Of a stretch of 64,000 nucleotides of DNA, positions 667 to 40,683 are shown one piece after another. Source of the stretch: Rhodococcus triatomae BKS 15-14. Lineage in GTDB: Bacteria > Actinomycetota > Actinomycetes > Mycobacteriales > Mycobacteriaceae. Under the pieces are notes generated by a model, which was not told the origin of the DNA, made no database searches, and saw only the letters and a list, made by a program, of their open reading frames with translations. The DNA lies in the NCBI GenBank assembly GCA_000341795.1, contig AODO01000010.1, positions 124,001 to 188,000 of the forward strand, written 5' to 3'. How positions within the stretch are numbered: the stretch's first letter is position 1; each line of letters opens with the position of its first letter. A program made the translations under genes and the position numbers.

Positions 667-2739
667 GTGCGGACACTGCTGATCGACAACTACGACTCGT
701 TCACGTACAACCTGTACGCGCTGTTGACGGAGGTCAACGGGTGCACACCGATCGTGGTGGCGAACGACGAGCAGTGGTCGGCGGTGTCCCTGGCCGACGT
801 CGACAACGTGGTGGTCTCCCCCGGGCCGGGGCGTCCGGATCGGCACCGGGACTTCGGGATCAGCGCGCAGGCGTTGACCGACACCGGGTTGCCGGTGCTC
901 GGGGTCTGTCTGGGGCATCAGGGACTGTGCCACCTGTTCGGGAGTCCGGTCGTCACGGCGCCGGAGCCGCGGCACGGGCGGATCAGTCCGGTCCGTCACG
1001 ACGGCGAGGGCCTGTTCGCGGGCCTGCCGTCGCCGTTCGACGCGGTCCGCTACCACTCGCTCGCGGTGGAGGAGATCTCCGACGAGCTGGTCGCCCAGGC
1101 CTGGTCCGACGACGGGGTGCTGATGGCGGTGCGGCACCGGGAGCGGCCGCTGTGGGGTGTGCAGTTCCACCCGGAGTCGATCTGCACCGAGTACGGACGC
1201 GAGTTGCTCGCGAACTTCGCGGCGGCGACACCGGTCCGGGCGCGGCGACCGGCGCCGCCCCCGCCGCGTCCGCCCGCCGCGGAACCGAGCCACCGGTACC
1301 GGGTGCGGTCGGTGCGGGTGGATCGGGCCGCGGATCCGCAGAAGGTGTACGAGCGGTTGTTCGCGGGCGGGCCGAACGGATACTGGCTGGACGGGTCGGG
1401 GGCGGGCGAGTCCGACGGCAGGTTCTCGGTGATGGGTGACAGTTCGGGACCGCGTGCCGAGTACGTGACCTACCGGGTGCCGGAAACGACTGTGCGGGTG
1501 ACCCGTTCGGACGGCTCGGAGGACGAGATTCGCAGCACCCTGTTCGACTACCTGGACGCAAGGCTGCGGGAGCGGTCGGTGGCGGCGCGGCCGGATCTGC
1601 CGTTCGGGTTCTGCCTCGGCTACGTCGGCTACCTCGGGTACGAGCTGAAAGCCGACACGGTCGGTCAGTTGGCGCACGCGTCCGAACAGGCCGACGCCGC
1701 ACTGGTGTTCGCCGACCGCGCCGTCGTGATCGACCACGACGCCGGGTGCGCGTACCTGCTCGCGCTCGAACCGCACGACACCACCGACCCGGCCGCGACG
1801 CGGTGGCTGCAGGAGACCTCGACGGTGATCCGGGAACTCGACGACGATCACGGCGCCCCGCCCGCCGGCGCTCCCCCGCTGGTCCCGACCCCGCGGGACG
1901 TGCCGGTGACCTTCCGGCACGACCGGTCCACCTATCTGCGGTTGATCGAGCAGTGCCTGGCGGAGATCGGTTCGGGCGAATCGTACGAGGTGTGCCTGAC
2001 GAACGCCGCGACCGTGCACCGCAGCCTCGACCCGGTCTCGGGATACGAGTGTCTTCGCGAGATCAGTCCGATGCCGTACAGCGCGCTGCTGCAGTTCTCG
2101 GGGCTGTCGGTGCTCAGCGCCTCCCCGGAACGGTTCCTCAAGGTCGCCGCGGACCGGACGGTGGAGTCGAAACCGATCAAGGGCACCCGGCCACGCTCCA
2201 CCGATCCCGACGAGGACCGGGCGTTGCGGAGCGACCTGCTGATCAGTGAGAAGGATCGGGCGGAGAACCTGATGATCGTGGACCTGGTGCGCAACGACCT
2301 GTCACGGGTGTGTGTGCCGGGTTCGGTGCACGTGCCGGTGCTCTTCGACGTCGAGACGTACGCGCCGGTGCATCAGCTGGTGTCGACGGTGCGGGGCACG
2401 TTGCGGGAGGGGGTGTCGGCCGTCGACCTCGTGCGGGCCTCGTTCCCCGGCGGGTCGATGACCGGGGCGCCGAAGGTGCGGACGATGGAGATCATCGACA
2501 AGCTCGAGGCCGGGCCGCGGGGCGTGTACTCGGGCGCCATCGGATATTTCTCGTTGTCGGGGACCGCGGACCTGTCGATCGTGATCCGCACGATGGTCGC
2601 CACCAGCGACGAGGTGACGTTCGGGGTCGGGGGGGCGATCGTCGCGCTGTCCGATCCCGAGGCGGAGTTCGAGGAGACGATGGTCAAGGCGCTCGCGACG
2701 CGGCGCTGCCTGTCCGTCGCCGACGAGTGCGAGCCGTGA
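667..2739 (+). CDS. papA: PapA: fused 4-amino-4-deoxychorismate synthase (glutamine amidotransferase + chorismate-binding subunits)
   Basis: This 690-residue fusion makes 4-amino-4-deoxychorismate from chorismate and glutamine. The N-terminal class-I glutamine amidotransferase (about 1-190) begins LLIDNYDSFTYNLY and has the triad Cys81 (GVCLGHQG), His168 and Glu170 (FHPES). After a Pro-rich linker, the C-terminal PabB/TrpE-like chorismate-binding domain shows PIKGTRPRS, DLVRNDLSRVC, FPGGSMTGAPKV and GVYSGAIGYFS. PabA-PabB fusions of this kind serve either folate or secondary metabolism (PapA, CmlB). The tight coupling to papB and papC argues for the latter. The GTG start lies 10 bases after papB, and the stop overlaps the papC start by 4 bases, so the genes are almost certainly co-transcribed and translationally coupled. 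Confidence 0.92.
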   Translation: MRTLLIDNYDSFTYNLYALLTEVNGCTPIVVANDEQWSAVSLADVDNVVVSPGPGRPDRHRDFGISAQALTDTGLPVLGVCLGHQGLCHLFGSPVVTAPEPRHGRISPVRHDGEGLFAGLPSPFDAVRYHSLAVEEISDELVAQAWSDDGVLMAVRHRERPLWGVQFHPESICTEYGRELLANFAAATPVRARRPAPPPPRPPAAEPSHRYRVRSVRVDRAADPQKVYERLFAGGPNGYWLDGSGAGESDGRFSVMGDSSGPRAEYVTYRVPETTVRVTRSDGSEDEIRSTLFDYLDARLRERSVAARPDLPFGFCLGYVGYLGYELKADTVGQLAHASEQADAALVFADRAVVIDHDAGCAYLLALEPHDTTDPAATRWLQETSTVIRELDDDHGAPPAGAPPLVPTPRDVPVTFRHDRSTYLRLIEQCLAEIGSGESYEVCLTNAATVHRSLDPVSGYECLREISPMPYSALLQFSGLSVLSASPERFLKVAADRTVESKPIKGTRPRSTDPDEDRALRSDLLISEKDRAENLMIVDLVRNDLSRVCVPGSVHVPVLFDVETYAPVHQLVSTVRGTLREGVSAVDLVRASFPGGSMTGAPKVRTMEIIDKLEAGPRGVYSGAIGYFSLSGTADLSIVIRTMVATSDEVTFGVGGAIVALSDPEAEFEETMVKALATRRCLSVADECEP

Positions 2740-3587
2740 CCGGGTCGCAGACGCTGTCGGTGGTCGTGGTCGGTGGGGCCGGAGCGGTCGGGTCGATGCT
2801 GGCGGACCTGTGGCGAGCGGACGGTGCGTCCGTCGACGTCGTCGACCGCGCCGCGGGGGACGACGTCCGTGCCGCCGACGAGCGGGTGCGGGGTCTGCTG
2901 GCCGCCGCGGACGTCGTGGTGCTCGCGGTCCCCGAGGACGTGGCCCTTGCCGCGGTCGGGGCGGTGAGGGCCGTGATGCGGCCCGCGGCGGTGCTCGTGG
3001 AGACCCTGTCGGTGAAGTCGCGGTTCGCGGCGGCGGTGGCGGGCACCGACGGGCCGGTGGTCGGGGTGAATCCGATGTTCGCGCCGTCGCTCGGGTTGCC
3101 GGGTCGTGCCGTGGCGGTCGTCGTGCACCACGGCGGGCCCGCGGTGGACGGGTTCGTGGCGGACCTGAGGCGGTGGGGCGGTCGGGTGCAGACGACGTCG
3201 GCGGACCATCACGACCGGTTGTGCGCGGCCCTGCAGGCACTCACCCATGCGACCGTGCTGGCGTTCGGCTGGGCGCTGACCGATCTCGCTGTCGACCCGG
3301 ACGAGGCAGCTGCGCTGGCGACGCCGCCGTACGCGACGATGTCGGCGCTGCTCGCCCGGATCGCGGGGGGCACCCCCGAGGTGTATCGGGACGTGCAGAC
3401 CGCCAACCCGTACGCATCGGCGGCGCGGGATGCGTTGGTACGGGCGGTGTCCCGGGTGTCGGACGCCGCGACCGGTGACACGAGCGATTTCGCGGCGCTG
3501 CTCGCCCGCGCCCGCGTTCCGCTCGGCGACCGCGCCGACGAGTACGCGGCGCTGTGCGCCCGCCTGTTCGAGGACCCGGCGCGATGA
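2736..3587 (+). CDS. papC: PapC-type 4-amino-4-deoxyprephenate dehydrogenase
   Basis: This 283-residue TyrA-like prephenate dehydrogenase family protein begins with a Rossmann nucleotide-binding loop (GGAGAVGS, about residues 13-20). It has a VNPMFAPSLGL motif where TyrA enzymes usually carry H-P-M-F. In Pap pathways it oxidatively decarboxylates 4-amino-4-deoxyprephenate to 4-aminophenylpyruvate. An Asn instead of His in that motif agrees with a substrate bearing an amine rather than a hydroxyl, though this is my inference. The start is the GTG at 2736, which overlaps the papA stop (GTGA); an upstream open frame inside papA is a shadow. The 3' end overlaps the next start as ATGA. Confidence 0.87.
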   Translation: MTGSQTLSVVVVGGAGAVGSMLADLWRADGASVDVVDRAAGDDVRAADERVRGLLAAADVVVLAVPEDVALAAVGAVRAVMRPAAVLVETLSVKSRFAAAVAGTDGPVVGVNPMFAPSLGLPGRAVAVVVHHGGPAVDGFVADLRRWGGRVQTTSADHHDRLCAALQALTHATVLAFGWALTDLAVDPDEAAALATPPYATMSALLARIAGGTPEVYRDVQTANPYASAARDALVRAVSRVSDAATGDTSDFAALLARARVPLGDRADEYAALCARLFEDPAR

Positions 3588-4516
3588 CCGGTCGCCTGCC
3601 CGACCACGACCCGACCGACCCCGTCGAAACCGCGGTGATCCGGGGTCTGGTGCGTAGCTGGCCGCGGCGCGCCACCGTCCGGCGTGACGAACCGGACCTC
3701 GACGTCCCCACGATGGACGAGCTGTACGACCCGGCGCGCACGGACTATCCGGAGTCGCTGCTGCCGTTCACCGGGCACCCGACGTACGAGAACCTCGACG
3801 ACGACACCCGGTCACGGATCCGGGCGTGGGCGTGGATCGCCTACAACAAGAGCGTCGTCGACATCGAACAGGATCTGGTCACCCCGGCGTTCGGCCTGCT
3901 GTTCCGGGATACGTTCGGCACGGGATTCTCCGATGCGGCGCGGGCGGCGGTCGTGCAGGCGATGGTCGACGAGGAGTACCACACGCTGATGCACCTGAAC
4001 GGGTCCTCGTTGACCCGGCGTGCCCGCGGCTGGGCGTTGCCGGACGCGGCGTTGCCACCGGCGTGGACGGTGCGTGAACACCGGACCGCGGTGGGGCGGT
4101 GCGGGACGCCTCGAGAGGCGGCGCTCACGACGCTGGCACGGGCCACCGTCGCCGAGACGTCGATCGGTGACTACCTCGCCCTGATCGCCCGCGACCGGTC
4201 CGTTCAGCCGGTGCACCAGGCGACGGTCGCGCTGCACCGCCGCGACGAGACCGCGCACGCGTCGGTCGCCGCCGAGATGGTCGCGCTCGTCCACGACGCC
4301 CTCGACGAGCGGGACCGGCGCACCCTCGTCGACGAACTGCGCGCCGGCGTCGACGCGTTCACCGCGACGGATCTGTCGGTGTGGCGGGCCGTCCTGGACG
4401 TCGAGGGCGTGTCCGGTGGCGACGCGATGCTCCGCGAGGTCGCCGAGGATCCGGTGCGGCGCCGTTTCCTCCAGGACTGCAGTGCCGTCGATCGGCTGCT
4501 CGACCGATTCGAGTGA
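3584..4516 (+). CDS. AurF/CmlI-family di-iron arylamine N-oxygenase
   Basis: This 310-residue ferritin-like di-iron protein belongs to the p-aminobenzoate N-oxygenase (AurF) family, which oxidises arylamines to hydroxylamines and nitro groups (AurF in aureothin, CmlI in chloramphenicol, ObaC in obafluorin). Ligand candidates are Glu95 (DIEQD), Glu130 and His133 (EEYH), Glu191 (AETS), His218, Glu222 and His225 (HRRDETAH). Their spacing reproduces the AurF set E136/H139 and H223/E227/H230, including the seventh histidine. The ATG overlaps the papC stop by 4 bases, so this is the last gene of the pap operon. That placement makes 4-aminophenylalanine, its keto acid, or the peptide carrying it the likely substrate. 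Which of these is oxidised cannot be read from sequence. Confidence 0.88.
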   Translation: MTGRLPDHDPTDPVETAVIRGLVRSWPRRATVRRDEPDLDVPTMDELYDPARTDYPESLLPFTGHPTYENLDDDTRSRIRAWAWIAYNKSVVDIEQDLVTPAFGLLFRDTFGTGFSDAARAAVVQAMVDEEYHTLMHLNGSSLTRRARGWALPDAALPPAWTVREHRTAVGRCGTPREAALTTLARATVAETSIGDYLALIARDRSVQPVHQATVALHRRDETAHASVAAEMVALVHDALDERDRRTLVDELRAGVDAFTATDLSVWRAVLDVEGVSGGDAMLREVAEDPVRRRFLQDCSAVDRLLDRFE

Positions 4517-5140: not shown

Positions 5141-6205
5141 GTGCGTGTGGTGGTCACCGGTGCCAGCGGCAGTGTGGGTACGGCACTGCTGACGCTGCTC
5201 GCGGCCCGCGGCGGGTACGAGGTGGTGGGGATCGCCCGCCGGACACCGCCGGTCGTCGAGCCCTACCGCACCGCGCGCTGGCATGCCGTCGACGTCGCCT
5301 CCGCCGGCGCCGTCCCGGTACTGCGGGACGTGATGACCGGGGCGGACGCGGTGATCCACCTGGCGTGGGGCTTTCAGCCGTCGCATCGTCCGGACCTGTT
5401 GCGGGGCACCGCGGTCCGCGGGACCGGCGCGGTCGTCGGTGCGGCACACGACGCCGGGGTGGGGCACGTGGTGCACATGTCGTCGGCGGCGGTGTACGCG
5501 CCCGGAGCAGCCGGCCGGGCCGTCGACGAGACGTGGCCGGCGACCGGCCAGCCGGCGTCCCGGTACAGCGTCGACAAGGTGGAGGCGGAACGGATCGTCA
5601 CCGAATCGTCCCGGCTCCCGGACGCCCCGGACGTCACCGTGGTGCGTCCCGGGCTCATCGGGCAGCGCATCGCGGGGGCAGCCCTGCGCCGGTACGCGTT
5701 GCCCGCGTGGGTGCCCGCGTCGGCGTTGCGCACGGTGCCGCTCGTCCCGATCGACGCGTCGCTCGCGATGCCCGCGGTGCACGCCGACGACGTCGCCGTC
5801 GCGCTGGAACGGACACTGCACACCCGCGTGGGGGTGCTGAACCTGGCGGCGCACGAACCCGTCGGCGCGCAGGACGTCGCGAAGTCGTTGCGGGGTCGTG
5901 CGATCCCGGTGCCGTGGCCCGTGCTGCGCTGGCTGGCGGAGGCGACGTGGCGCGCCCGTCTGCAGCCCGCCGCCGGCGGGTGGATCGATCTGGCGTACCT
6001 GACACCGATGCTGGACTGCTCCCGTGCCCGCGAGCTGCTCGGCTGGTCCCCGGCACACACCGGACCCGAGGTGTGGCGCGAGACCGTCGCGGGTATGCAG
6101 GACGGGAGCGCAGGGACAGGCCCCGTCCTGGGTGTCCGGTCCGTTCGCACCACCGTGCGGGTCACGACCCGGCAGGGCACCCTCGGTCGGCGGCGCCTGC
6201 CCTGA
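5141..6205 (+). CDS. NAD(P)-dependent epimerase/dehydratase (extended SDR)
   Basis: This 354-residue extended short-chain dehydrogenase begins with the nucleotide-binding motif VVVTGASGSVG and shows VIHLAWG, the HMSSAAVYA strand and the YSVDK catalytic Tyr/Lys pair. The C-terminal part ends with a SRARELLGWSPAHTG motif typical of NAD-dependent nucleotide-sugar epimerases. The substrate is unknown. GTG at 5141 is chosen because GGAGGGAG at 5126-5133 lies seven bases upstream and the Rossmann strand begins at once. It is the first gene of a three-gene unit with the SRPBCC and FAD-oxidoreductase genes. Its position between the pap operon and the NRPS gene raises the possibility of a tailoring role, but nothing in the protein shows that. 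Confidence 0.8.
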   Translation: MRVVVTGASGSVGTALLTLLAARGGYEVVGIARRTPPVVEPYRTARWHAVDVASAGAVPVLRDVMTGADAVIHLAWGFQPSHRPDLLRGTAVRGTGAVVGAAHDAGVGHVVHMSSAAVYAPGAAGRAVDETWPATGQPASRYSVDKVEAERIVTESSRLPDAPDVTVVRPGLIGQRIAGAALRRYALPAWVPASALRTVPLVPIDASLAMPAVHADDVAVALERTLHTRVGVLNLAAHEPVGAQDVAKSLRGRAIPVPWPVLRWLAEATWRARLQPAAGGWIDLAYLTPMLDCSRARELLGWSPAHTGPEVWRETVAGMQDGSAGTGPVLGVRSVRTTVRVTTRQGTLGRRRLP

Positions 6206-6221
6206 CAGGAAGGACGATCCG

Positions 6222-6674
6222 GTGACACACTCGGCCACCTGGGACACGGACGCACCACCCGGCGCGGTGTGGGGCATTCTCGCCGACGGCTGGACCTTCC
6301 CCGGGTGGGTGGTCGGCGCAGCGCGGATCCGCGCGGTCGACGACGGCTGGCCGGCGGTCGGGACGCGACTGCATCACTCGGTCGGCTGCTGGCCGTTGCT
6401 CCTCGACGACCGGACCGAGGTGCTGCGCTGCGTCCCGGGGTCCGCCCTGACGCTCCGGGCTCGTGCCGTGCCGTTCGGTCTCGCCGAGGTCGAGCTGTGT
6501 CTGGAATCCACCGAGCGGGGCTGCCACGTCGAGATGATCGAACACGTCGTGTCCTGGCCGGTGAAACTGCTCCCGGATGCGGTCCAGGAGTGGGCGGTGG
6601 CGCCGCGGAACCGGGAATGCCTGCGGCGGCTGGCGCTCATCGCGGAGCGGGCCACGGAACGGACGCGCGGATGA
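6222..6674 (+). CDS. SRPBCC (polyketide cyclase/START-like) family protein
   Basis: This 150-residue protein has the N-terminal signature of SRPBCC ligand-binding folds (DAPPGAVWGILADGWTFPGWV) and a helix-grip C-terminus. Members bind hydrophobic ligands, and many are annotated as polyketide cyclases/dehydratases; the specific ligand here is unknown. GTG at 6222 has AGGAAGGA at 6207-6214, seven bases upstream. The stop overlaps the start of the next gene (ATGA), so the two are translationally coupled. Frequent pairing of such proteins with CrtI-like oxidoreductases in actinobacteria suggests a shared substrate, which is inference only. Confidence 0.78.
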   Translation: MTHSATWDTDAPPGAVWGILADGWTFPGWVVGAARIRAVDDGWPAVGTRLHHSVGCWPLLLDDRTEVLRCVPGSALTLRARAVPFGLAEVELCLESTERGCHVEMIEHVVSWPVKLLPDAVQEWAVAPRNRECLRRLALIAERATERTRG

Positions 6675-8263
6675 CGGTGGACACGGTCGACGCCGTCGTG
6701 ATCGGTGCGGGCTCGAACGGGCTGACCTCGGCGGCGTTGCTGGCGGACGCGGGCATGGACGTGCTCGTCCTGGAGGCTCAGCCCGCGCCGGGAGGCGCGG
6801 TCCGGACGGAGGAACTGTTTCCGCGGTTCAAAGCCGACCTGTTCAGCGCGTTCCATCCGCTGGCGGCGGTGTCCCCCGTCTTCGCCGAGCTGGATCTGGC
6901 CGCGCACGGCCTCGCGTGGTCGCGTCCGGCATCCGCGTTCGGTCACCCCGCCGGCCCGGACGACGAGGACGCGGTCACGCTGGGCGCCACCGCGGAGGAC
7001 ACCGCCGAGGATCTCGAACGCCGGTTCCCCGGGGACGGTGCGGCGTGGATGCGGCTGCACGACCAGTGGTCGGCGGTGCGGGAACCGTTCCTGCGTACCG
7101 TCCTCGGCCCGTTTCCCCCGGTCACCGGACCCGTCGGGGTGCTCCGTGCTCTCGGCACGTCGGAGGGCTTGCGGTTCGCGCGGATGTGCCTGCTGCCCGC
7201 GCGGCGGCTGGTGGAGGAGCTGTTCGGCGGCGACGATGCCGGCCTGCTCCTGCTCGGCAGTGCCGCGCACGCCGACATCCCCGTCGACGCCGCCGGCAGC
7301 GGGCTGATGGGGTACCTGCTGACGATGGTCGCGCAGGATGTCGGTTTCCCCGTGCCGACCGGTGGCGCCGGGGTGCTGACCGATGCGCTCGTGCGGCGCG
7401 CGCAGGCGGCGGGCGCGCAGGTGCGCTGCGGGCAGGAGGTCACGGGCATCGAGGTCCGATCGGGCCGTGCGGCCGGGGTGGTGACGGCCGGAGGTGGTCG
7501 TGTGGAGGCGCGGTGCGCCGTCCTCGCCGACGTGTCGGCGCCCGCTCTGTACGGACGTCTGCTCCCCGCCGACGCGGTCCCGGCACGGACGCGCGACGAC
7601 CTGAGCCGGTTCGAATGGGACACGCCACTGGTCAAGGTCAATTACGCTCTCGCGGAACCTGTTCCGTGGCGTTCCTCGTCTCTGCGGAGGGTCGGGACGG
7701 TGCATCTCGGTGCGGACGCCGACGGCCTCGTGCGGTGGGGCGCGGACCTCGAGACCGGGACGGTGCCACGGAATCCGTTCGTCCTCGTCGGCCAGATGAC
7801 CACCGCGGACCCGACGAGGTCCCCCGCGGGAACGGAGAGCGCCTGGGCGTACAGCCATCTGCCCCGCGGGATCGCCGACGACGCGGCGGCGGACGTGCTC
7901 GCCGACCGCATCGACGACACGCTCGAGGCGCACGCTCCCGGTTTCCGGGGGACGGTGCGGCACCGCTGCGTTCAGCGCCCGGCGGATCTCGAGGCAGCCG
8001 ACGCCAACCTCGTCGGCGGCGCGGTCAACGGCGGCACGGTGCAACTCCACCAGCAGTTGCTGTTCCGGCCGGTACCGGGGGCGTCCGGGCCCCGGACGCC
8101 GGTCGAGCGGCTGTATCTCGCCGGTGCGGCCGCCCATCCCGGTGGTGGAGTGCACGGGATGTGCGGGGCCCATGCCGCGGCGGCCGTGCTCGCCGACCGG
8201 ACGACGCTGGGCCGGCTGCGTCGGCGCGCCGGCGGCGTTCTCGAACGTCGGTTGCGGGACTGA
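6671..8263 (+). CDS. Phytoene-desaturase-like FAD/NAD(P)-binding oxidoreductase
   Basis: This 530-residue flavoprotein opens with a canonical dinucleotide-binding motif (AVVIGAGSNGLTSAALLADAG) and an acidic ribose-binding position (VLEAQ). It then has GGAVRTEELFP typical of CrtI/phytoene dehydrogenase-related amine-oxidase-fold enzymes. A C-terminal FAD motif reads LYLAGAAAHPGGGVHGMCG. Family members desaturate, isomerise or saturate polyprenyl chains, but many bacterial paralogues have no known substrate. No phytoene synthase or other carotenoid gene is in this window, so I do not assign it to carotenoid synthesis. The ATG overlaps the preceding stop by 4 bases, and a hairpin follows the stop at 8269-8295. 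Confidence 0.82.
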   Translation: MTVDTVDAVVIGAGSNGLTSAALLADAGMDVLVLEAQPAPGGAVRTEELFPRFKADLFSAFHPLAAVSPVFAELDLAAHGLAWSRPASAFGHPAGPDDEDAVTLGATAEDTAEDLERRFPGDGAAWMRLHDQWSAVREPFLRTVLGPFPPVTGPVGVLRALGTSEGLRFARMCLLPARRLVEELFGGDDAGLLLLGSAAHADIPVDAAGSGLMGYLLTMVAQDVGFPVPTGGAGVLTDALVRRAQAAGAQVRCGQEVTGIEVRSGRAAGVVTAGGGRVEARCAVLADVSAPALYGRLLPADAVPARTRDDLSRFEWDTPLVKVNYALAEPVPWRSSSLRRVGTVHLGADADGLVRWGADLETGTVPRNPFVLVGQMTTADPTRSPAGTESAWAYSHLPRGIADDAAADVLADRIDDTLEAHAPGFRGTVRHRCVQRPADLEAADANLVGGAVNGGTVQLHQQLLFRPVPGASGPRTPVERLYLAGAAAHPGGGVHGMCGAHAAAAVLADRTTLGRLRRRAGGVLERRLRD

Positions 8264-8268
8264 CCGGT

Positions 8269-8295
8269 GCCCCGGTTCCGTGCGTGAACCGGGGC
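8269..8295 (+). terminator. Intrinsic-type terminator hairpin after the FAD oxidoreductase gene
   Basis: A perfect 10-base stem (GCCCCGGTTC pairing with GAACCGGGGC) with a 7-base loop begins six bases after the stop codon. There is no T-run, which is usual in G+C-rich actinobacteria. Confidence 0.6.
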
Positions 8296-8316
8296 GGACC
8301 GGGGTATCCGGGTGGC

Positions 8317-9414
8317 ATGCGACTCGCCGTGCTCGACATCGGATCCAACTCCGCACAACTGCAGGTCGTCGACGCCCAGCCGGGTGCGCCGCCGCTCCCC
8401 ATCCACGGGTTGCGCGTTCCGGTCAGGCTGAGCGAGGACATGGACGGGACCGGTTCGATCGGCGAGCGCGGTATCGGACGGGTGGTGGCCGCGGTCGCCG
8501 CGGCGGTGGAGGTGGCGCTGCAGCAGAACGTCGAGCAGTGGTATCCGTTCGTGACGGCCGCGATCCGCGATGCCGCCAACCGCGACGTCGTCCTGCGGCG
8601 GATCGAGGACGAGACCGGGGTGCAGCCGCAGTACCTGTCGGGCGAGCAGGAGGGCAGGCTCACGTACGTCGCGGTGCGGCGCTGGTACGGCTGGTCGGCG
8701 GGTCGCCTGCTCGACATCGACATCGGTGGGGGTTCGATGGAGATCGCCTACGGTCGCGATGCGGAACCCGACGTGGTGATCTCGATGTCGCTCGGCGCCG
8801 GCCGGCTGACCCGCGAGTTCTTCACCGCGGACCCGCCTCCGGCCTGCGAGGTCAAGGAACTGCACAGGCATGTGCGGACGGCGGTGCGCGAAGCGGCGGA
8901 CCGTCTTCGGTGGGAGGGCGAGCCGCGGCGTGTCATCGGGTCGTCGAAGACCTTCAAACAGCTCGCCCGCCTCGCGGGGGCGGCTCCGCAACGCGAGGGG
9001 CCGTTCGTGCATCGGAACGTCACCGCCAAGCAGATCACCCGCTGGATCCCCCGGCTGGCCGCGTTGACCGGCGCGCAGCGCGCCGCCCTGCCGGGCGTGT
9101 CCCGGCCGCGTGCGGCGCAGATCCTGGCCGGTGCGGTCGTGGCCGCCGAGACGATGCGGGCGTTGCAGATCGATGCGCTCGAGGTGAGCCCGTGGGCGTT
9201 GCGGGAGGGCGTGATGCTCGAGCATCTCGCCCGGGTCACCGACCCGGCGACGTCGCTACCCGCCTTTCCGCTGCGCCCGCGCGCTGCTGCACCCGGGAAC
9301 GACACGGCTGCACCAGGTTCCGTGGTGTACCAGCTGGATCGCCGTACCGGCTCGCCTGGTGCGGCGTCCTCGCCGGTCGGCGCAGGTGCGGCCCCGGACC
9401 GGGGGCGGCGGTGA
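8317..9414 (+). CDS. Ppx/GppA family phosphatase (exopolyphosphatase-like)
   Basis: This 365-residue member of the ASKHA-fold Ppx/GppA family hydrolyses inorganic polyphosphate or pppGpp in characterised relatives. The first phosphate loop reads LAVLDIGSNSAQLQVVD and the second DIDIGGGSMEIAYG, both intact. The domain-II motif GSSKTFKQLARL and C-terminal LEVSPWALREGVML are also family-typical. After about residue 310 a low-complexity Pro/Ala/Arg tail of about 50 residues is unlike the conserved core. The ATG at 8317 begins exactly at the conserved strand but has only a weak ribosome binding site. It stands alone, after a terminator and before a STAS gene. Confidence 0.85.
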   Translation: MRLAVLDIGSNSAQLQVVDAQPGAPPLPIHGLRVPVRLSEDMDGTGSIGERGIGRVVAAVAAAVEVALQQNVEQWYPFVTAAIRDAANRDVVLRRIEDETGVQPQYLSGEQEGRLTYVAVRRWYGWSAGRLLDIDIGGGSMEIAYGRDAEPDVVISMSLGAGRLTREFFTADPPPACEVKELHRHVRTAVREAADRLRWEGEPRRVIGSSKTFKQLARLAGAAPQREGPFVHRNVTAKQITRWIPRLAALTGAQRAALPGVSRPRAAQILAGAVVAAETMRALQIDALEVSPWALREGVMLEHLARVTDPATSLPAFPLRPRAAAPGNDTAAPGSVVYQLDRRTGSPGAASSPVGAGAAPDRGRR

Positions 9415-26000: not shown

Positions 26001-29000
26001 GGCGGGCACCTCGACCGTCACCCGCTCGGCCGTGGACTCTGTGTCGACCGCCGGGTCCAGGGGACGGGACCCGATCACCGGGTCGGGTCCGGTGTGCACG
26101 GCCCGCCACAGGTCCAGTTCGTCGCGCCGCGATCCGGCGGCGTCGACCAGCGCGTGCGCCCACCGCCGCATCGACGTCCCCACCGGCGCGAGCGCGGGTT
26201 CCTGCCCGGCGGTCACGTGCGCCCACGCGATCGCCAGGTCCGGCACCAGCACCCGCCACGACACACCGTCGACCACGAGGTGGTGCACGACCACCATCAG
26301 CCGGTCCTCGCCGGTCGCCGAGTCCAGCCACACGACCTGCAGCATCACCCCGTTCACCGGGTCCAGGCGGTCCTGGGCGGCGTCGAGGACCGCGAGCGCC
26401 GCCGACTCGTACTCGGGGGTGCCGGGTGCCGATCGGACGGCGACGCGTCGCACGCAGGAGGCGGCGTCGACGGCGCCGACGGGTCGCACCTCCATCACCG
26501 GGCCCGTCGCCGGGTCGTCGATCCGCAGCCGCGCGCGCAGCATGTCGTGCCGGTCGAGTACCGCCTGCACGGTCGCCACCAGTGGGTCGAGGGAGGTCAG
26601 GTCGCGCGGGGCGCGCAGCAGCGTCGGCTGCGACATCCGGTCGAATCGGCCACCGGGGTGCTCGGGGCGGCCGCTGCGCTCGATCAGCCACCGCACGATC
26701 GGGGTGGGCGGCATGTCGCCGACACCGCCGCCGGGCAGTTCCTCCAACGTCGGCGCCGGTGCGTCCCCGGCCTCGGCGACGCCGGCGAGCGCGGCGATCG
26801 TCTTGTGCTCGAACACCTGCCGCGGGGTCAGCGCGAGCCCCGCGTCCTTGGCGCGGGCGACGAGCTGAATGGACATGATGCTGTCGCCGCCGAGTGCGAA
26901 GAACGAATCGTCCACACCGAAGTCGGCGACGTCGACGCCGAGCACCTCGGCGTACAGGCTCACCAGGGTGTCCTCGACGGGGCCGCTCGCCGCCCGGCGG
27001 GTGGCGGTGCGCGCGGTGAAGTCCGGCTCGGGCAGCGCGCGGCGGTCCAGCTTCCCGACCGGCGTCAGGGGCAGGTCGTCGAGGACGACCAGCGCGGACG
27101 GCACCATGTACGGGGCGAGTTGCGTGGCGGCGAAGGTGAGCAGTTCGTCGATGTCGACGTCGACACCGGCGGCCGGGGGGACCACGTACCCGACCAGGCG
27201 CGGTCGCCCGGCGTTGTCGGGGTGGGCGACGACGACGGCGCGCGCGACCGAGTCGTGCCGGGTCAGTGCCGACTCCACCTCGCCGAGCTCGATGCGGAAG
27301 CCTCGGATCTTGACCTGGAAGTCGCTGCGCCCCAGGTACTCCAGCTCCCCCGTCCCTCCGGTCGGGTCGCCCGTCCAGCGCACCAGGTCGCCGGTCCGGT
27401 ACATCCGGCCGCCGGTGAACGGATCCGCGACGAACCGCTCCGCCGTCGTCCCGGGCCGGTTCCGGTAGCCGCGGGCCACGCTCGGACCCGTCACGTACAG
27501 CTCCCCCACCACACCCACCGGCACCGGGTGCAGCCGTTCGTCGAGGACCAGCGATCCGCTGCCGGTGGACGGTCCGCCGATGGTGACCGGGCGGTCCGGC
27601 GTCAGGGGGGCGCTGATCCCGGCCACGACCGTCGTCTCGGTCGGCCCGTAGGCGTTGAACAGGTCCCGGCCCCCGCCCGCCCACTGCCGCACCAGCTCGG
27701 GCGGGCAGACGTCGCCGCCGGTGACGACGCACCGGAGATCGTCCAGTCCCGTCGCGTCGACCGATGCCAGCGCGGCCGGGGTGACGAAACCGTGCGTGAC
27801 CGTCCGCAGGATCGCGCGCAGTTCCTCGCCGCCGTACACGGTCGGTGGCGCGATCACCATCGTCGCGGCCGATCCCAGTGCGAGCAGCAACTCCAGGATG
27901 GACGCGTCGAAGCTCGGCGAGGAGAAGTGCAGGGTGCGGCTGTCCGCGGTCACGCCGAACCGGTCCCGCGCCTCCTGCATCAGGTTCGCCAGGCCTCGGT
28001 GACCGACGATCACCCCCTTGGGCAGACCCGTCGATCCGGAGGTGTAGATGAGGTAGGCGGCATCGTCGAGGCGGGCCCGCGGCGCGGGCACGCCGTCCCG
28101 GTCGACGGCGGGGGCGTCCCAGTCGACCTCGTCGACGTCGAACCAGTCGACCAGGTCCGGGACCTGCTCACGATGCGCACGGACGGTCAGCCCCAGCGTG
28201 GCGCCGGAGTCGCGCAGCATGTGCTCGATCCGGTCCGCCGGATAGTTCGGATCCACCGGCACGAACGCCGCACCGCATCGCACGACGGCCCACAGCGCGG
28301 TCACCGATTCGACGGACCGCGCGATCGACAGGGCCACGACGGTGCCGGGCCCGGCGCCGTGCCCGGCCAGGATCGCGGCCAGGACGTCGGCCCTGGCAGC
28401 GAGTTCTCGGTAGGTCAGGCTCCGATCGCCGTCGACGATCGCCGTCCGGTCCCCGCCGGCCGCGACGGCGTCCGCCACGATCTCCGCGAGGGTCCGCGGC
28501 TCGGGAGGCGGCGGCCCCCACACCGGGCACAGGGCGTCCGATTCGGCGGTGGACAGGACCGGGATGTCTCCGGTGGCGCGCGCCGGGTCGGCGACGACGG
28601 CGGCGAGGACGCGTTCGAGGCGAGCGACCACGGCCGCGACCGCTTCCGCCGCGAACACGTCGTTGGCCTCGTGCGCGATGAGGGCGGGAGTCGGGCCGGG
28701 ACGGTACTGGAGCACCAGATCGGCGTCGCGTGGATCGGTGTCCGGGGCGGTGACGGCGACGGCCGGTGCGGGAAGGTCGAGTGTCGCGGCGAGACGCGAG
28801 AGCGGTGTCGCGGCGTGCTCGGCGGCGCGGCGCACGGTGTCGGCGGTGCGGCGGACCTGCTCGGCGAAGGGGGTGGAGGGATCGAGACGTGAGCGGATGG
28901 GAAGCGGTTCGGGCGGGGTGGATGCGGTGGCACCGTCCGGTGGCTTGTCGGCGCCGTAGGGGGGCCCGGCCACGTCGGTGGCGACCGCGAGATCGTCCGC

Positions 29001-31402: not shown

Positions 31403-31741
31403 ATGGCAGATCGCGTACTTCGAGGGAGCCGCCTCGGAGCGGTGAGCTACGAGACGGACCGTGACCACGACCTCGCACCCCGGCGGATCGCCCGCTACCG
31501 CTGCGACAACGGCGAGGAGTTCGACGTCCCGTTCGCCGACGATGCCGAGATCCCCGGCACCTGGCTGTGCAAGAACGGTCTCGAAGGCACCCTGCTCGAG
31601 GGCGCCGCACCCGAGGTCAAGAAGGTCAAGCCGCCGCGCACCCACTGGGACATGCTGCTCGAGCGCCGCTCCATCGAGGAACTCGAAGAGCTGCTCAAGG
31701 AGCGCCTGGACCTGCTGAAGACCAAGCGGCGCGGCGCATAG
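31403..31741 (+). CDS. rbpA: RNA polymerase-binding protein RbpA
   Basis: RbpA is a 112-residue actinobacterial transcription factor that binds RNA polymerase and the group-1/2 sigma factor and stabilises the open complex. The protein begins MADRVLRGSRLGAVSYETDR and has the Cys-containing core (RYRCDNGEEFDVPF...WLCKNG). A basic linker (KKVKPPRTHWDMLLERRS) and a C-terminal sigma-interacting helix (IEELEELLKERLDLLK) follow. Length and sequence are standard for Corynebacteriales. GAGGAGAGG precedes the ATG by 11 bases. A sigma-R-like promoter lies upstream and a strong hairpin downstream, so it is monocistronic. Confidence 0.97.
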   Translation: MADRVLRGSRLGAVSYETDRDHDLAPRRIARYRCDNGEEFDVPFADDAEIPGTWLCKNGLEGTLLEGAAPEVKKVKPPRTHWDMLLERRSIEELEELLKERLDLLKTKRRGA

Positions 31742-31789
31742 CGGAGCGCGCCGCAGCGGTCACACCGCGGAGCGTGGCGAAGCCCGTAT

Positions 31790-31838
31790 ACGACGCGAGG
31801 GGCCCCGGAGATTCGATCTCCGGGGCCCCTCGCGTCGT
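31790..31838. terminator. Strong bidirectional terminator between rbpA and ppm1
   Basis: A perfect 22-base stem (arms 31790-31811 and 31817-31838, core GGGGCCCCGGAGA with its complement) with a TTCGA loop lies between two convergent genes. It is the longest hairpin in the window. Confidence 0.85.
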
Positions 31839-31843
31839 GTCGG

Positions 31844-32620
31844 CTACCTGCCGACGAGGCCGCGCAGCTTCCGCCAGCGGTTCGCCATGCCCCAACCGAG
31901 GACCTTCGTGAACGCCTCGGTGATGATGTTGCCGGACATCTTCGACTCGCCGAACTCGCGTTCGGTGAAGGTGATCGGCACCTCGACCATGGTGAACCCG
32001 GCCTGCAGCGCCCGCCAGCCCATGTCGATCTGGAAGCAGTAGCCGGCGGATTCGATGGCCCCGAGGTCGAGTGTCTCGAGGACCACGCGCCGGTAGGCGC
32101 GGTAGCCGCCGGTGATGTCCTTGATCTTCACCCCGAGCGCGAGCTGGGAGTAGATGTTGCCGCCGCGGGAGAGGATCTCGCGGCGCCGCGGCCAGTTCAC
32201 GACACTGCCACCGGGCACGTAGCGGGATCCGGCGACGACGTCGGCGCCCTCGTCGATCTTGTCGAGCAGGCGATGCAGCTGCTCGGGTGCGTGGCTGCCG
32301 TCGGCGTCCATCTCGACGACCACCTGGTAGTCGCGTTCGAGTGCCCACTGGAAGCCGGCGATGTAGGCCGCGCCGAGTCCGTTCTTCTCGGTGCGGTGCA
32401 TCACGTGGATGCGTCCCTCGGTGTCGTCGGCGGCGAGCTTGTCGGCGATGTCGCCGGTGCCGTCGGGGCTGCCGTCGTCGGCGACGAGGACGTGCGCACC
32501 GGGCACGGCCGCGTGCAGCCGCCCGATGATCAGCGCAATGTTCTCGCTCTCGTTGTACGTCGGAATGATGACCAGCGTGCTGGAGCTCGGCTTGTCCCCG
32601 CTCGGCTTACCCGCGCTCAT
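31844..32620 (-). CDS. ppm1: Polyprenol monophosphomannose synthase (GT2)
   Basis: This 258-residue GT2 glycosyltransferase transfers mannose from GDP-mannose to polyprenyl phosphate, the donor for lipoglycan assembly and protein O-mannosylation. Motifs are [12 protein letters not shown], the nucleotide-binding DDGSPDGTG, the metal-binding DADGSH, and GSRYVPGG. It is the single-domain form without membrane segments; in M. tuberculosis the catalytic domain is fused to an Lnt-like domain. Here the lnt gene lies immediately upstream with a 4-base overlap, so the two act as a split version. It is the last gene of the fxsA-amidohydrolase-lnt-ppm1 operon. Confidence 0.93.
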
Positions 32621-34290
32621 TCGATCCTCTCCCCCAGCCGAGGCTGGTCCGTTCCGTGAACATCCGCACCGTCAGTTGAGGGCACGGCCGGCCGACGTCG
32701 CCGTGCTGCGGTCTGCAGGGCTGCGGCGATCACGGCCAGTGCGGCTGCGGCGGCCAGAGCGAACTCCGGAATCGAACCGAGCCGAGTAGCCAGCGTAATG
32801 GAGGTCCGAAGCGGAACCTGCGCCACCAGCGTGGTGGGCTCGAAAAGTGCGGACGAATCGGTCACAGTTCCGTCGGGTGCGACGATCGCGCTGACCCCCG
32901 ACGTGGCCGCGACGACCACCGCCCGCCCCTGCTCGACGGCCCGCAGGCGCGACATCGCGAGCTGCTGGTACGTCATCTCGGTGTCACCGAAGGTGGCGTT
33001 GTTCGTGGGCACGGCGATCAGTTCCGCGCCGGCGCGGACGGCCTCGGTGAGCGCCCGATCGAAAGCGACCTCGTAGCAGGTGGCGACACCGACCGGGATG
33101 CCGGCCGCGCGCACCACACCGTCGCCGGACCCGGGTGAGAAGTTGCCGGCCCGGTCGGCGTACTCGGAGAAGTGGCGGAAGAAGTCGCGGTACGGCAGGT
33201 ACTCGCCGAACGGCTGGATGATCTTCTTGTCGTGTTCGTCACCGGGTCCGCTGTCCGGATCCCAGACGACGACGGTGTTCGTCGTGCTGCCGTCGGCGCG
33301 CACCAGGACCGTCCCGACCAGGATCGGCGCGTCCACCGCCCGGGCCGCCGCGGTGATGGAGGCAGCGGCGTCGGCGTTGCGGAACGGGTCGATGTCGGAC
33401 GCGTTCTCCGGCCAGATGACCAGGTCGGGCTGCGGGACGGTGCCGGCGTCCACATCTGTCGCCAGCTCGAGGGTCTGCCGGACGTGGTTGTCGAGCACGG
33501 CGCGCCGCTGCGCGTTGAAGTCGAGGCCGAGTCGCGGCACCCCACCCTGGACGGCGGCGACGGTGACGGTGCCCGACTCGGCATCGGCCATGCCCGGGAC
33601 GGTCGGGGCGAGCGCGATCGCGACCAGCGGCAGCACCGCCGCCGTGGCGGCGGGCGCCAGCCAGCGCAGCACCGCCGCCGTGGCGGCGGGCGCCAGCCAG
33701 CGCAGCATCGGCCGACGGGTGTCGAGCACCGCGACCACCAGCGCGGCCAGCCCGGTACCGGTCAGCGCGACGGCGAAGCTGACGAGCGGCGCCCCGCCGA
33801 TGCTCGCGAGCGGAAGCAGCACTCCCTCGCTCTGACCGAAGGCGAGCCGACCCCAGGGGAATCCGCCGAACGGGACGGTCGAGCGGAGCCACTCCGTCAG
33901 CGACCACACGCACGCGATCCACAGCGGCGCGGCCCGGAACCGTGCCACCGCGACGGCGAGGAGCCCGAACAGACCGACGAACAGCGCCTCGACTCCGGAC
34001 AGCGCGAGCCACGGCACCGGACCGACGTACTCGCCGACCCACGGCAGCAGCGGCAGCAGGAACCCGAGCCCGGCGAGGAAGCCGTACCCGAACCCGGCGC
34101 GCAGGCGCCGCGGTCCGCGGCCCCGGTCGGTGAGCACCACAACCAGCAGCGCGATCCCGACCGGGGCGAGGAACCACAGCGGCCGGGGCGGGAAGCTCGC
34201 GAACAGCAGCAGACCCGCAACGATCGCGGCCACCGAGTTGCCCAGGACACGCAGTGCCCGCCCGCTGCGGGTGGCGGGGTCAGCGTTCAT
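32617..34290 (-). CDS. lnt: Apolipoprotein N-acyltransferase
   Basis: This 557-residue membrane enzyme N-acylates the lipoprotein N-terminal cysteine. About six transmembrane helices occupy residues 15-230. The nitrilase-like periplasmic domain follows with the triad in VIWPENASD (Glu), [15 protein letters not shown] (Lys) and VATCYEVAF (Cys), and a last helix near residue 520 anchors the C-terminus. The ATG at 34290 overlaps the amidohydrolase stop by 11 bases; a longer open frame to 34497 is a shadow. A perfect 36-base tandem repeat duplicates [12 protein letters not shown] in a membrane segment (see 33631-33702). In mycobacteria this protein interacts with or is fused to Ppm1. Confidence 0.93.
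33631..33702 (-). repeat. Perfect 36-base tandem duplication inside lnt
   Basis: Copies at 33631-33666 and 33667-33702 are identical and are followed by a partial third start (CAGCA). The repeat is in frame and duplicates 12 residues ([12 protein letters not shown]) in a membrane segment before the catalytic domain. Identity at the DNA level points to a recent slippage event, or to an assembly artefact. Confidence 0.95.
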
Positions 34291-35857
34291 GAATGGTGAC
34301 GCCACGGTGCACCGTGCGCAGGCACACCGGGTTGGGCGCGTCGTCGTCGAGACGCGGCATCGCCGGGACCCGCGACCGCGGGTCCGTCGACCAGCGCTGC
34401 ACGGTGTCCTTCGCGGCGGTGACGACGAGTTCGCCGGCATCCCACACCGCGTAGGAGGCGGGCGCGCCGGGAACGAGGGTGCCGGCCAGACCGTCACGGA
34501 CCCCGCCGGCGCGCCAGGCGCCGCGCGTGGCCGCGGCGTAGGCGGCGCGCGGGGAGATACCGCTGCCGTCGGTGCGGTGGTGCGCGGCGGCGCGCAGACT
34601 GTCCCACGGGTTCAGCGGGGTGACGGGTGCGTCCGAGCCGATGGCGAGGGACACACCCGCCGAGGCCATCGCCGCGAACGGGTTCATCGCCAGCGCCCGC
34701 TCGGCGCCGAGCGCGCGGGCGTACATGCCGTCGGGGCCACCCCAGAGCGCGTCGAAGCCCGGCTGCACGCTGGCGACGACTCCCCAGGCGGCGAGTTTCG
34801 CGGACTGTTCGGCGTCGATCATCTCGACGTGCTCGAGCCGGTGCCCGCAGGCCGCGACCGCGGGACCGCCGAGTTCCGCGACGATCCGTTCGAAGCCGGC
34901 GACGGCGGCGGCGACGGCGGCGTCACCGATGACGTGGAAGCCGGCCTGGATGCCGGCGATCGTGCAGGCCCGCAGGTGTGCGGCGACGGCGTCGACGTCC
35001 AGATAGCCGGTGCCGGTGTGCGGGCGGTCCGCGTACGGCTGCGACAGCCACGCGGTGCGAGAGCCGATCGACCCGTCGACGAACAGGTCGCCACCGAGCG
35101 CGTGGGCGCCGGTGTCGGCGAGTAGGGCGGTGGCCTCGTCGGCGTCGGAGACGGCCTGCCCCCAGAACGCGCGAACCTGCACGCCGTGGTCGGTGGCGAG
35201 CAGTTCGGCGAGATCGGTGCGGCCCGCGATGTCCGGGCCGGAGCATTCGTGGACGGCGACGACGCCGTTGGCGGCGGCGCGGTCGAGTGCCGCGGCCCGG
35301 GCCCGGGCCCGCTGTTCGGTGGTGAGCAGGTCACGGGCGGCGGCGCGGATCCGATGGTGCTCGTCGGCGGTGACGGGAGCGTCACCGGGCAGCGCGGCCC
35401 GCGCGCGCAACGGGGTCGAGCAGGCCGCCGAGTGTGCGTCGATCCGGGCGAGGTACACCGCCCGACCGGGCGCCGCCTCGTCGAGTTCGGTGGTGGTCGG
35501 GCCGCGGTCCGCGTCGGGCCAGCCGGTCTCGTCCCAGCCCTGGCCCCAGACGACCGCGTCGTCGTGGCTGGCGGCGTACGCGCGGACCAGGTCGAGACAT
35601 TCGCGCAGCGACCGCGCGCCCGCCACGTCCAGGCCGGTCAGCGTGAGTCCGAGCGAGGTGGTGTGGACGTGGGTGTCGACGAACCCGGGCCCGACGAACG
35701 CGCCGTCCAGGTCGACGATCTCCGCGTCCGGGTGCAGGGCGCGGCCGGGCCGGTCCTCCCCCACCCAGACGACGGTGCCGTCGGTGATCGCCATCGAAGT
35801 CGCGTCCGGTGCCGCCGGGCTGTAGATCCTGCCGCCGACCAACAGTTGGGTACTCAC
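34280..35857 (-). CDS. YtcJ-like metal-dependent amidohydrolase
   Basis: This 525-residue amidohydrolase of the YtcJ/amidohydrolase-3 type has the first metal motif GPGFVDTHVHTTSLG, a central GFHVIGDAAV, HRLEHVEM with metal-ligand histidines, and a late IGSDAPV aspartate motif. The substrate is unknown for nearly all such proteins. It sits in a tight operon: fxsA ends six bases upstream and lnt begins inside its 3' end. Mycobacteria carry a related hypothetical gene in the same interval between ppm1 and fxsA, so its presence here is syntenic rather than acquired; that comparison is from memory. Confidence 0.82.
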   Translation of the reverse strand: MSTQLLVGGRIYSPAAPDATSMAITDGTVVWVGEDRPGRALHPDAEIVDLDGAFVGPGFVDTHVHTTSLGLTLTGLDVAGARSLRECLDLVRAYAASHDDAVVWGQGWDETGWPDADRGPTTTELDEAAPGRAVYLARIDAHSAACSTPLRARAALPGDAPVTADEHHRIRAAARDLLTTEQRARARAAALDRAAANGVVAVHECSGPDIAGRTDLAELLATDHGVQVRAFWGQAVSDADEATALLADTGAHALGGDLFVDGSIGSRTAWLSQPYADRPHTGTGYLDVDAVAAHLRACTIAGIQAGFHVIGDAAVAAAVAGFERIVAELGGPAVAACGHRLEHVEMIDAEQSAKLAAWGVVASVQPGFDALWGGPDGMYARALGAERALAMNPFAAMASAGVSLAIGSDAPVTPLNPWDSLRAAAHHRTDGSGISPRAAYAAATRGAWRAGGVRDGLAGTLVPGAPASYAVWDAGELVVTAAKDTVQRWSTDPRSRVPAMPRLDDDAPNPVCLRTVHRGVTIHER

Positions 35858-35863
35858 GGGGCT

Positions 35864-36418
35864 TCAGTCTGCCCGGCCGCCGTCGGTGCGGTGCGCACCG
35901 GGATCGGGAAGCACGATCTCGCCCTCGATCGCCTGTGGCCCACCCCACATCGGCCGGGACGGAGCGTCGTCGACGACCACGTCCTCGACGACGACACCGT
36001 CGACGACGGTGGCGCGGGAGCGGGCGTACGCCCCGGCACCGGCGGCGCCGGCGGCGGACACGACGGCCATCCGGCGGCCGGCGACGAGCACGGCCAGCGG
36101 GCGCAGCAGCATCCGGGTGGGCGGTGCGAGCATCAGCAGACCCAGCACCCCCGTGACCAGCCCCGGCACGAGCAGCAGGACGGTGCCGGTGGTGACGAGA
36201 GCACCGTCCGCGACGGCGCCGCCGATCGACCCGCGGCCTTCACCCGCGCGTTGCAGCTGCTCGAACACCCGCCGGAACTGGGACCGCATCAGCCACAGCC
36301 CGACCGCCCAGGTGGCGAGGAACAGCAGGACGGTCCAGCCGACGCCGATGGCGCTGCCGAGCCACACCACCGCCGCGATCTCCACCACGAGGTACAGCAC
36401 GAACAGTGCGGGAATCAT
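35864..36418 (-). CDS. fxsA: FxsA family membrane protein
   Basis: This 184-residue FxsA-like cytoplasmic membrane protein has two N-terminal transmembrane helices (residues 3-20 and 25-43), a re-entrant hydrophobic stretch (TGTVLLLVPGLVTGVLGLLML, about 77-97) with the family's conserved PGLVTG, and an Asp/Val-rich C-terminal tail. In E. coli, overproduction of FxsA relieves phage T7 exclusion by the F plasmid; its native role is unknown. It is the first gene of the operon fxsA-amidohydrolase-lnt-ppm1. Confidence 0.88.
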   Translation of the reverse strand: MIPALFVLYLVVEIAAVVWLGSAIGVGWTVLLFLATWAVGLWLMRSQFRRVFEQLQRAGEGRGSIGGAVADGALVTTGTVLLLVPGLVTGVLGLLMLAPPTRMLLRPLAVLVAGRRMAVVSAAGAAGAGAYARSRATVVDGVVVEDVVVDDAPSRPMWGGPQAIEGEIVLPDPGAHRTDGGRAD

Positions 36419-39558: not shown

Positions 39559-40683
39559 GTGAGCGAGCTGATCCCGGCCCCCGAACGCGCCCCGGCGACA
39601 CCCGTCCCCGAGGACGTCGCGGACGCGATGAACCGGCTGCGGCGCGCAGCGGTCCCCGAGAACACCCGCGCCGCCCAGATCAGCGACTGGTCGATCTTCG
39701 GCCGCTGGTGCGAGCGCGTCGGCCAGCCACCGCTGCCGGCGACACCGGAACTGATCGGCTGGTTCCTGACCGAGAAGTCGGCCGAGGTCCGTCCGGACGG
39801 CAGACCCGCCTACGCGCCCGCGACGATGACGCGGTGGGTGGCGTCGATCAACACCGTCCACTCCCTCGCCGGGCACCCGAAACCCGGCCGGGCACCGGCG
39901 GTCCGGGAGATCCTGCGCGGCATCGCACGCACCCGTGCCACGCCACCCGCCCGACGCGAACCGCTGCTCACCGACGACGTGCGGATCCTCGTGGAGACCA
40001 TGCGCGCGGCGGCGGCGACCTGGCCCGAACGCGCCGCCGAACGCCGCGACTCCGCCGTTCTCCTGGTCGGGCTGACCGGCGCGATGCGCCGCTCGGAGCT
40101 GTCGGGGCTGCTCGTCTCCGATGTCCGTCCGCACCGCGCCGACGGCCTGTACGTGACGATCCGGCGGTCGAAGACCGACCAGACCGCCGCCGGCCGCACG
40201 GTCACACTCCCCTACGGGTCGTCACCCGTGACCTGCCCGGTGTGCGCCCACCGCCGGTGGCGCGAGGTCGTCGACGCCTGGGACGAGGGCGGCCGCGAGG
40301 CGGTGTCCGCCCTGCTCGGTGGCCCGGACGACTCCCACACCGAGCATCGGTGCCGCGGACTGACCGCCGCACCCGCCGCCGCGCGGCCGCTGTTCCGCAG
40401 CGTGCACCGCACCGGCGGTCTCGGCGAGGGTCCGCTCTCGGGGCAGGCCATCGCCTCGATGATCCAGCGCCGCGCCCGACAGTCCGGATACGCGGAAGAG
40501 TTCGTCGCGATGCTCGGCGGGCACAGCCTGCGGGCCGGCTTCGTCACCCAGGCGGTCCGCAACGCCGCGAGCGCGGAACAGATCATGACGCAGAGCGGGC
40601 ACACCGATCAGCGGATGATCGCCCTCTACTCCCGCCAGCACGCCGGACTGCACGGCAACGCGGTCACCGCGCTCGGACTCTGA
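39559..40683 (+). CDS. Tyrosine recombinase/integrase
   Basis: This 374-residue site-specific recombinase has an N-terminal SAM-like core-binding domain (about 15-115) and a catalytic domain with Arg in TGAMRRSELSGL, Lys in IRRSKTD, His-x-x-Arg in GGHSLRAGF, and His plus Tyr in SGHTDQRMIALYSR. The full set is present, so it should be active. An unusual Cys-containing insertion (VTCPVCAHRRW...HRC) lies between the Lys and His-Arg motifs. GTG at 39559 is the start. There is no adjacent tRNA gene or visible att duplication, so it does not look like a simple phage integrase. The divergent KfrA-like gene suggests a plasmid-derived or domesticated module. Confidence 0.9.
   Translation: MSELIPAPERAPATPVPEDVADAMNRLRRAAVPENTRAAQISDWSIFGRWCERVGQPPLPATPELIGWFLTEKSAEVRPDGRPAYAPATMTRWVASINTVHSLAGHPKPGRAPAVREILRGIARTRATPPARREPLLTDDVRILVETMRAAAATWPERAAERRDSAVLLVGLTGAMRRSELSGLLVSDVRPHRADGLYVTIRRSKTDQTAAGRTVTLPYGSSPVTCPVCAHRRWREVVDAWDEGGREAVSALLGGPDDSHTEHRCRGLTAAPAAARPLFRSVHRTGGLGEGPLSGQAIASMIQRRARQSGYAEEFVAMLGGHSLRAGFVTQAVRNAASAEQIMTQSGHTDQRMIALYSRQHAGLHGNAVTALGL

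Follow-up and report, generated by a model that had tools for sequence, protein, structure and literature searches.

The closest characterized relative of the oxygenase reported here is CmlI, the di-iron arylamine N-oxygenase of the chloramphenicol pathway, which acts late, on NH2-chloramphenicol (PMC10724926). AzoC, of azoxymycin biosynthesis, is 53% identical to CmlI and ends at the nitroso level (PMC6783550, PMC8840469). In the obafluorin beta-lactone pathway, which also involves an NRPS, ObaC (ObiL) has been proposed to oxidize 4-aminophenylpyruvate; it is a distant enzyme, about 19–25% identical to AurF and CmlI (PMC5490192). Corynecins have been reported from Rhodococcus sp. H-CA8f, and reviews credit them to Undabarrena et al. 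2021 (PMC10819586, PMC9557007). Humimycin A (Tyr-Ser-dTyr-Phe-dThr-Val-Val) is known as a synthetic peptide, the design of which was based on the predicted codes of iupU of R. equi (PMC12024397), the cluster of which has been described as having amidohydrolase and N-acyltransferase neighbours (PMC5550956). Our literature search found no paper in which humimycin is connected to pap genes or to an N-oxygenase.

The window, that is, the whole 64,000-nucleotide stretch of Rhodococcus triatomae BKS 15-14 DNA which was analysed, opens with four genes on the plus strand in the order papB-papA-papC-oxygenase. The papB-like 4-amino-4-deoxychorismate mutase gene (327–656; start codon uncertain, the ORF being open from 198) matches PF01817 [CM_2, 61 bits] and lies above the cut-off of the chorismate mutase-like subfamily TIGR01803. 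The papA gene (667–2739) specifies a fused glutaminase/aminodeoxychorismate synthase with GATase, Anth_synt_I_N and Chorismate_bind domains, and scores 359.8 bits against TIGR00553 [pabB], above the cut-off of 328.4. Three more chorismate-binding genes lie elsewhere in the genome, so that papA is additional to these. The papC gene (2736–3587), specifying a 4-amino-4-deoxyprephenate dehydrogenase-like protein, is above the cut-off for PDH_C (38.7 bits) and slightly under that for PDH_N; prephenate dehydrogenase models also match it. The aminodeoxychorismate synthase, mutase and dehydrogenase of a PapABC set are thus present in one operon, and these profile matches bear out the initial annotation in placing a pap operon upstream of the oxygenase gene. 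No aminotransferase was recognized within the operon. Together PapA, PapB and PapC would lead from chorismate to 4-aminophenylpyruvate, which a general (housekeeping) aromatic aminotransferase is assumed to turn into 4-aminophenylalanine.

The last gene of the operon (3584–4516) begins within papC, its ATG at 3584 and the papC TGA at 3585–3587 sharing the tetranucleotide ATGA (3584–3587); papA and papC overlap in the same manner (GTGA, 2736–2739). The oxygenase had been described as fused by overlap to the pap operon, whereas these are separate ORFs with a 4-bp overlap. In 24 of 25 loci (the window and 24 relatives) a start codon is found at -4 from the stop codon of papC; the sole exception (L054) reads as a frameshift. 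Because it recurs in this way the overlap is more than chance, and from its sequence we regard it as conserved translational coupling. That is all that an ATGA overlap indicates, and the proposal that the oxygenase is stoichiometric with PapC cannot be built upon it. Upstream of the operon are genes for an ABC-2 permease and a DrrA-like ATPase (L002:3012–4807) which are 91–96% identical in Rhodococcus RD6.2. Their inclusion in the cluster as an exporter is unsupported, the ATPase being 51–55% and the permease 22–25% identical to exporters at other loci.

The 310-aa product of the last gene was identified as a CmlI-type di-iron arylamine N-oxygenase. It matches PF11583 [AurF] with 161.4 bits against a cut-off of 29.6, and its only significant relatives in the PDB are CmlI [5hyg, 253 bits] and AurF [3chh/2jcd, 152 bits]. 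Against the AurF equivalog NF045603 [4-aminobenzoate N-oxygenase] it scores 186.6 bits, below the cut-off of 620; this and the relative identities (42–45% to CmlI, about 34% to AurF) rule out AurF proper. An AlphaFold2 model (pLDDT 86.8) shows the ferritin-like helical fold of AurF and CmlI, and Foldseek places CmlI [5hyh/5hyg] first and AurF next, with TM-scores of 0.76–0.81 by query. On these sequence and model comparisons its closest characterized relative is CmlI, not AurF. In the phylogenetic tree the rhodococcal oxygenases form a sister lineage set apart from CmlI (fork support a moderate 82/100), the window protein falling outside the CmlI clade, where CmlI pairs with a CmlA-linked copy from another genome of the family (G333).

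All seven metal ligands predicted by the initial annotation (E95, E130, H133, E191, H218, E222 and H225) align with those of CmlI and AurF, and are present in nearly all relatives. Their spacing had been said to reproduce AurF exactly. It is instead identical to that of CmlI (gaps of 35, 3, 58, 27, 4 and 3), AurF having one residue fewer at the third gap, between H and the fourth ligand (35, 3, 57, 27, 4 and 3). AzoC, by its published residue numbers (102/137/140/198/225/229/232), also has 58 there. The position of AurF Arg96, which we take to be a carboxylate contact, is occupied by Ser in the window oxygenase and by Asn in CmlI and most relatives. In the Gordonia protein L041 one ligand aligns as Y, not H. 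Four more AurF-family matches occur in the R. triatomae genome (L003–L007), two of them at contig ends, and the three that were compared are less than 27% identical to the window oxygenase. Elsewhere in the family a second CmlI-like gene, 64% identical to CmlI, was found with no pap gene in the surrounding 60 kb (L083, G229:C1:3144548–3145435).

Relatives of the oxygenase at E≤1e-30 are encoded by 110 of 401 family genomes, and the complete operon was found in Rhodococcus, Prescottella, Antrihabitans and Gordonia. From 24 named loci which were fetched, 22 were long enough to be examined for a neighbouring NRPS, and at 16 of these NRPS sequence lies within 10 kb of the operon. None lies within that distance at the four Gordonia loci, Prescottella subtropica and A. 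stalactiti; in P. subtropica (G129) an NRPS is found about 15 kb away. Three arrangements recur: the NRPS lies downstream of the operon and on the other strand (window, RD6.2, Prescottella), it lies upstream and divergent (zopfii-type genomes, Antrihabitans), or, in several genomes of the g6/g23 set, it is of a second type and is found close to ribosomal-protein genes together with an ABC exporter. One member of this set (G303) has no NRPS in 60 kb. In the g6 genomes the locus consists of papC and the oxygenase only, and a papA relative (63–64% identical) occurs elsewhere in all four genomes tested; the pathway is thus split (L153–L156), with papA about 1 Mb from the papC-oxygenase locus in G292.

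The NRPS beside the operon appears to be of the humimycin type in the window, RD6.2, Prescottella and Antrihabitans. That of P. equi (G039), 541 bp from the operon by ORF ends, has seven modules with the A-domain codes DALFVGAVVK, DVWHFSLVDK, DALFAGAVVK, DALFMGGVMK, DFWNVGMVHK, DGFFAGAIMK and DAFFAAGIQK, epimerization domains in modules 3 and 5, Ser and Thr codes at 2 and 5, and a terminal thioesterase recognized by motif. In its number of modules, its two epimerase positions and its Ser and Thr codes this enzyme matches published humimycin A, and Lnt and amidohydrolase genes beside NRPSs of the P. equi type fit the published description of the humimycin cluster. On its architecture and neighbours, rather than by accession, we regard it as the iupU locus.

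In the window the corresponding gene (10104–30701, minus strand), assigned by its domain motifs, codes, thioesterase and module orthology, specifies a five-module protein of 6865 aa with the order C-A(DALFVGAVVK)-T-E, C-A(DGLFLGGIMK)-T, C-A(DFWNIGMVHK, Thr)-T-E, C-A(DGFFAGAVMK)-T and C-A(DAFFAAGIQK)-T-TE. In the A-domain tree its modules are collinear with modules 3–7 of the P. equi NRPS. It is likewise collinear with the RD6.2 protein (about 9,180 aa, seven modules) except that approximately 2,120 residues, that is, two modules, are missing. The junction lies inside an A domain (about residues 1000–1100), the N-terminal part following module 1 of RD6.2 and the remainder following its module 3, and the loss is either a real deletion by recombination or a collapse of the draft assembly.

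The oxygenase and NRPS genes are 1.5 kb apart in RD6.2 and about 5.6 kb apart in the window, where non-conserved genes intervene. These (5141–9414) encode an epimerase, an SRPBCC protein, a FAD oxidoreductase and a Ppx/GppA-type protein; they are absent from this position in RD6.2 and were not counted as parts of the cluster. Beside the NRPS (31403–36418) are genes for RbpA, a GT2 glycosyltransferase, Lnt, an amidohydrolase and FxsA which look like core-genome neighbours, though the Lnt and amidohydrolase genes may be those described as humimycin cluster genes. A phage-integrase-family gene is present at 39559–40683.

Taken as a whole we consider it probable that the PapABC product is N-oxidized early, likely to the nitro level, and then used by the adjacent humimycin-type NRPS. 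The initial annotation held that N-oxidation should occur, and for a para-amino aromatic made by PapABC the family, ligands, fold and conserved operon give this good support. With O2 the oxygenase, a carboxylate-bridged di-iron enzyme, would oxidize the para-amino group, most likely to nitro, and its substrate would be a small intermediate: 4-aminophenylpyruvate, as proposed for ObaC and unlike the p-aminobenzoate of AurF, or 4-aminophenylalanine or a carrier-bound form. The resulting amino acid would be taken in by an A domain which reads as Tyr/Phe, in module 1 and possibly also module 2, the end product being an acylated peptide resembling a humimycin lipopeptide. The operon thus most likely supplies 4-nitrophenylalanine (or 4-aminophenylalanine) for its "Tyr/Phe" positions.

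The first candidate for activation of either amino acid is the module-1 A domain (27462–28904, minus strand). A classical Tyr code, DALVTGAVVK, is close to its DALFVGAVVK. Such a code alone was rejected as proof of substrate, since codes differ between clusters and the CmlP-like A domain of G333, which belongs to a known arylamine pathway, has another (DASMQSAVCK). Relatives of the module-1 domain at E≤1e-130 occur in 42 of the 401 genomes and the oxygenase accompanies them in all 42, a co-occurrence which is real but confounded by genus and shared ancestry and was therefore not taken as proof.

The overlap with papC had been offered as a reason for expecting a small pathway intermediate and not a finished peptide. 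An overlap does not reveal a substrate; the small intermediate is nevertheless favoured, because this oxygenase and papC have been retained together next to NRPSs of at least two unrelated types, for which a shared building block is a better explanation than any single finished peptide. Likewise, NRPSs that differ in architecture are served by a single oxygenase lineage, which argues for an early substrate. The strongest competitor is a late reaction, in which the NRPS takes 4-aminophenylalanine and the oxygenase acts in the manner of CmlI on the carrier-bound or released peptide. The late action of CmlI itself weighs against certainty on timing, and the Ser at the Arg96 position (Asn in CmlI and most relatives) suggests that the enzyme does not have to bind a free carboxylate. 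Occurrence of the lineage beside NRPSs with different module orders is better accommodated by a common small substrate, and we rate late oxidation as unlikely, although it retains more weight than the other alternatives.

Oxidation might also stop short of nitro. The ligands do not fix the end point of N-oxygenation, for AzoC has the same spacing and ends at nitroso, so that a hydroxylamine, nitroso or azoxy product could be envisaged here. Against this, both of the relatives for which structures have been solved, AurF and CmlI, proceed to nitro, and we hold an end point of the AzoC kind to be improbable.

About equally doubtful is that the operon acts in trans for some other pathway, a different NRPS or a small nitroaromatic, its place near this NRPS being incidental. 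The genome has 47 A-domain matches from which such a user could come. Gordonia, the closest operon relatives after RD6.2 (L038–L041), retains the operon with no NRPS nearby, none being found in the 60 kb examined around that of G359, which suggests transfer of the operon. This counts against early oxidation for the adjacent NRPS as well, as do the erythropolis/opacus-like genomes, in which the humimycin-type NRPS and the operon are at different loci (5.18 Mb versus 0.95 Mb in G083), and the distance of about 5.6 kb, with non-conserved genes, in the window. However, adjacency to an NRPS recurs in differing arrangements, whether downstream, divergent upstream or at the ribosomal-protein locus, and the window NRPS is the likely user of the operon's product.

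Finally, antiSMASH labels rhodococcal clusters as "corynecin", pap genes and a CmlI-like enzyme are shared with chloramphenicol biosynthesis, and corynecins were reported from Rhodococcus sp. H-CA8f, yet a nitrophenylserinol of the corynecin/chloramphenicol type is very improbable here and was rejected, since CmlA (PF18456) was not found in the window genome, the same profile search detects it in only one of 401 family genomes, and the neighbouring NRPS has a thioesterase as its last domain. The sole positive genome, G333, has a cmlI-cmlP-like-cmlA-papA-papC-papB cluster (L098–L099, G333:C15) whose CmlI is 71% identical to CmlI, and also a separate papC/oxygenase/exporter/NRPS locus of the window type. 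Because it carries both separately the two systems are distinct. The chloramphenicol system shares with the window family, fold, ligands and pap genes, and differs in having CmlP where the window has a giant multimodular NRPS with a thioesterase in a genome devoid of CmlA. With the H-CA8f corynecin cluster the window shares pap/N-oxygenase chemistry, whereas corynecins need chemistry not found here. That cluster is possibly related to the operon described here and may include one of its type.

On these results a CmlI-like lineage that is widespread among rhodococci can be told apart from true chloramphenicol and corynecin clusters, which automatic labels may confuse. Humimycins were made synthetically from A-domain predictions, synthetic material being all that the reports consulted describe, and the conserved operon for supply of a nitro-phenyl unit offers a testable correction of their predicted structure. 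We tentatively suggest, at rather less than even confidence, that the true products of the humimycin/iupU NRPSs carry 4-nitro- (or 4-amino-)phenylalanine at one or more of the positions where the synthetic humimycins have Tyr or Phe, the source being the adjacent papBAC-cmlI operon. The mass signature to look for is +45 (nitro) or +15 (amino) over Phe. If this is true, the synthetic humimycins which have been tested would approximate members of a family of nitroaromatic lipopeptides.
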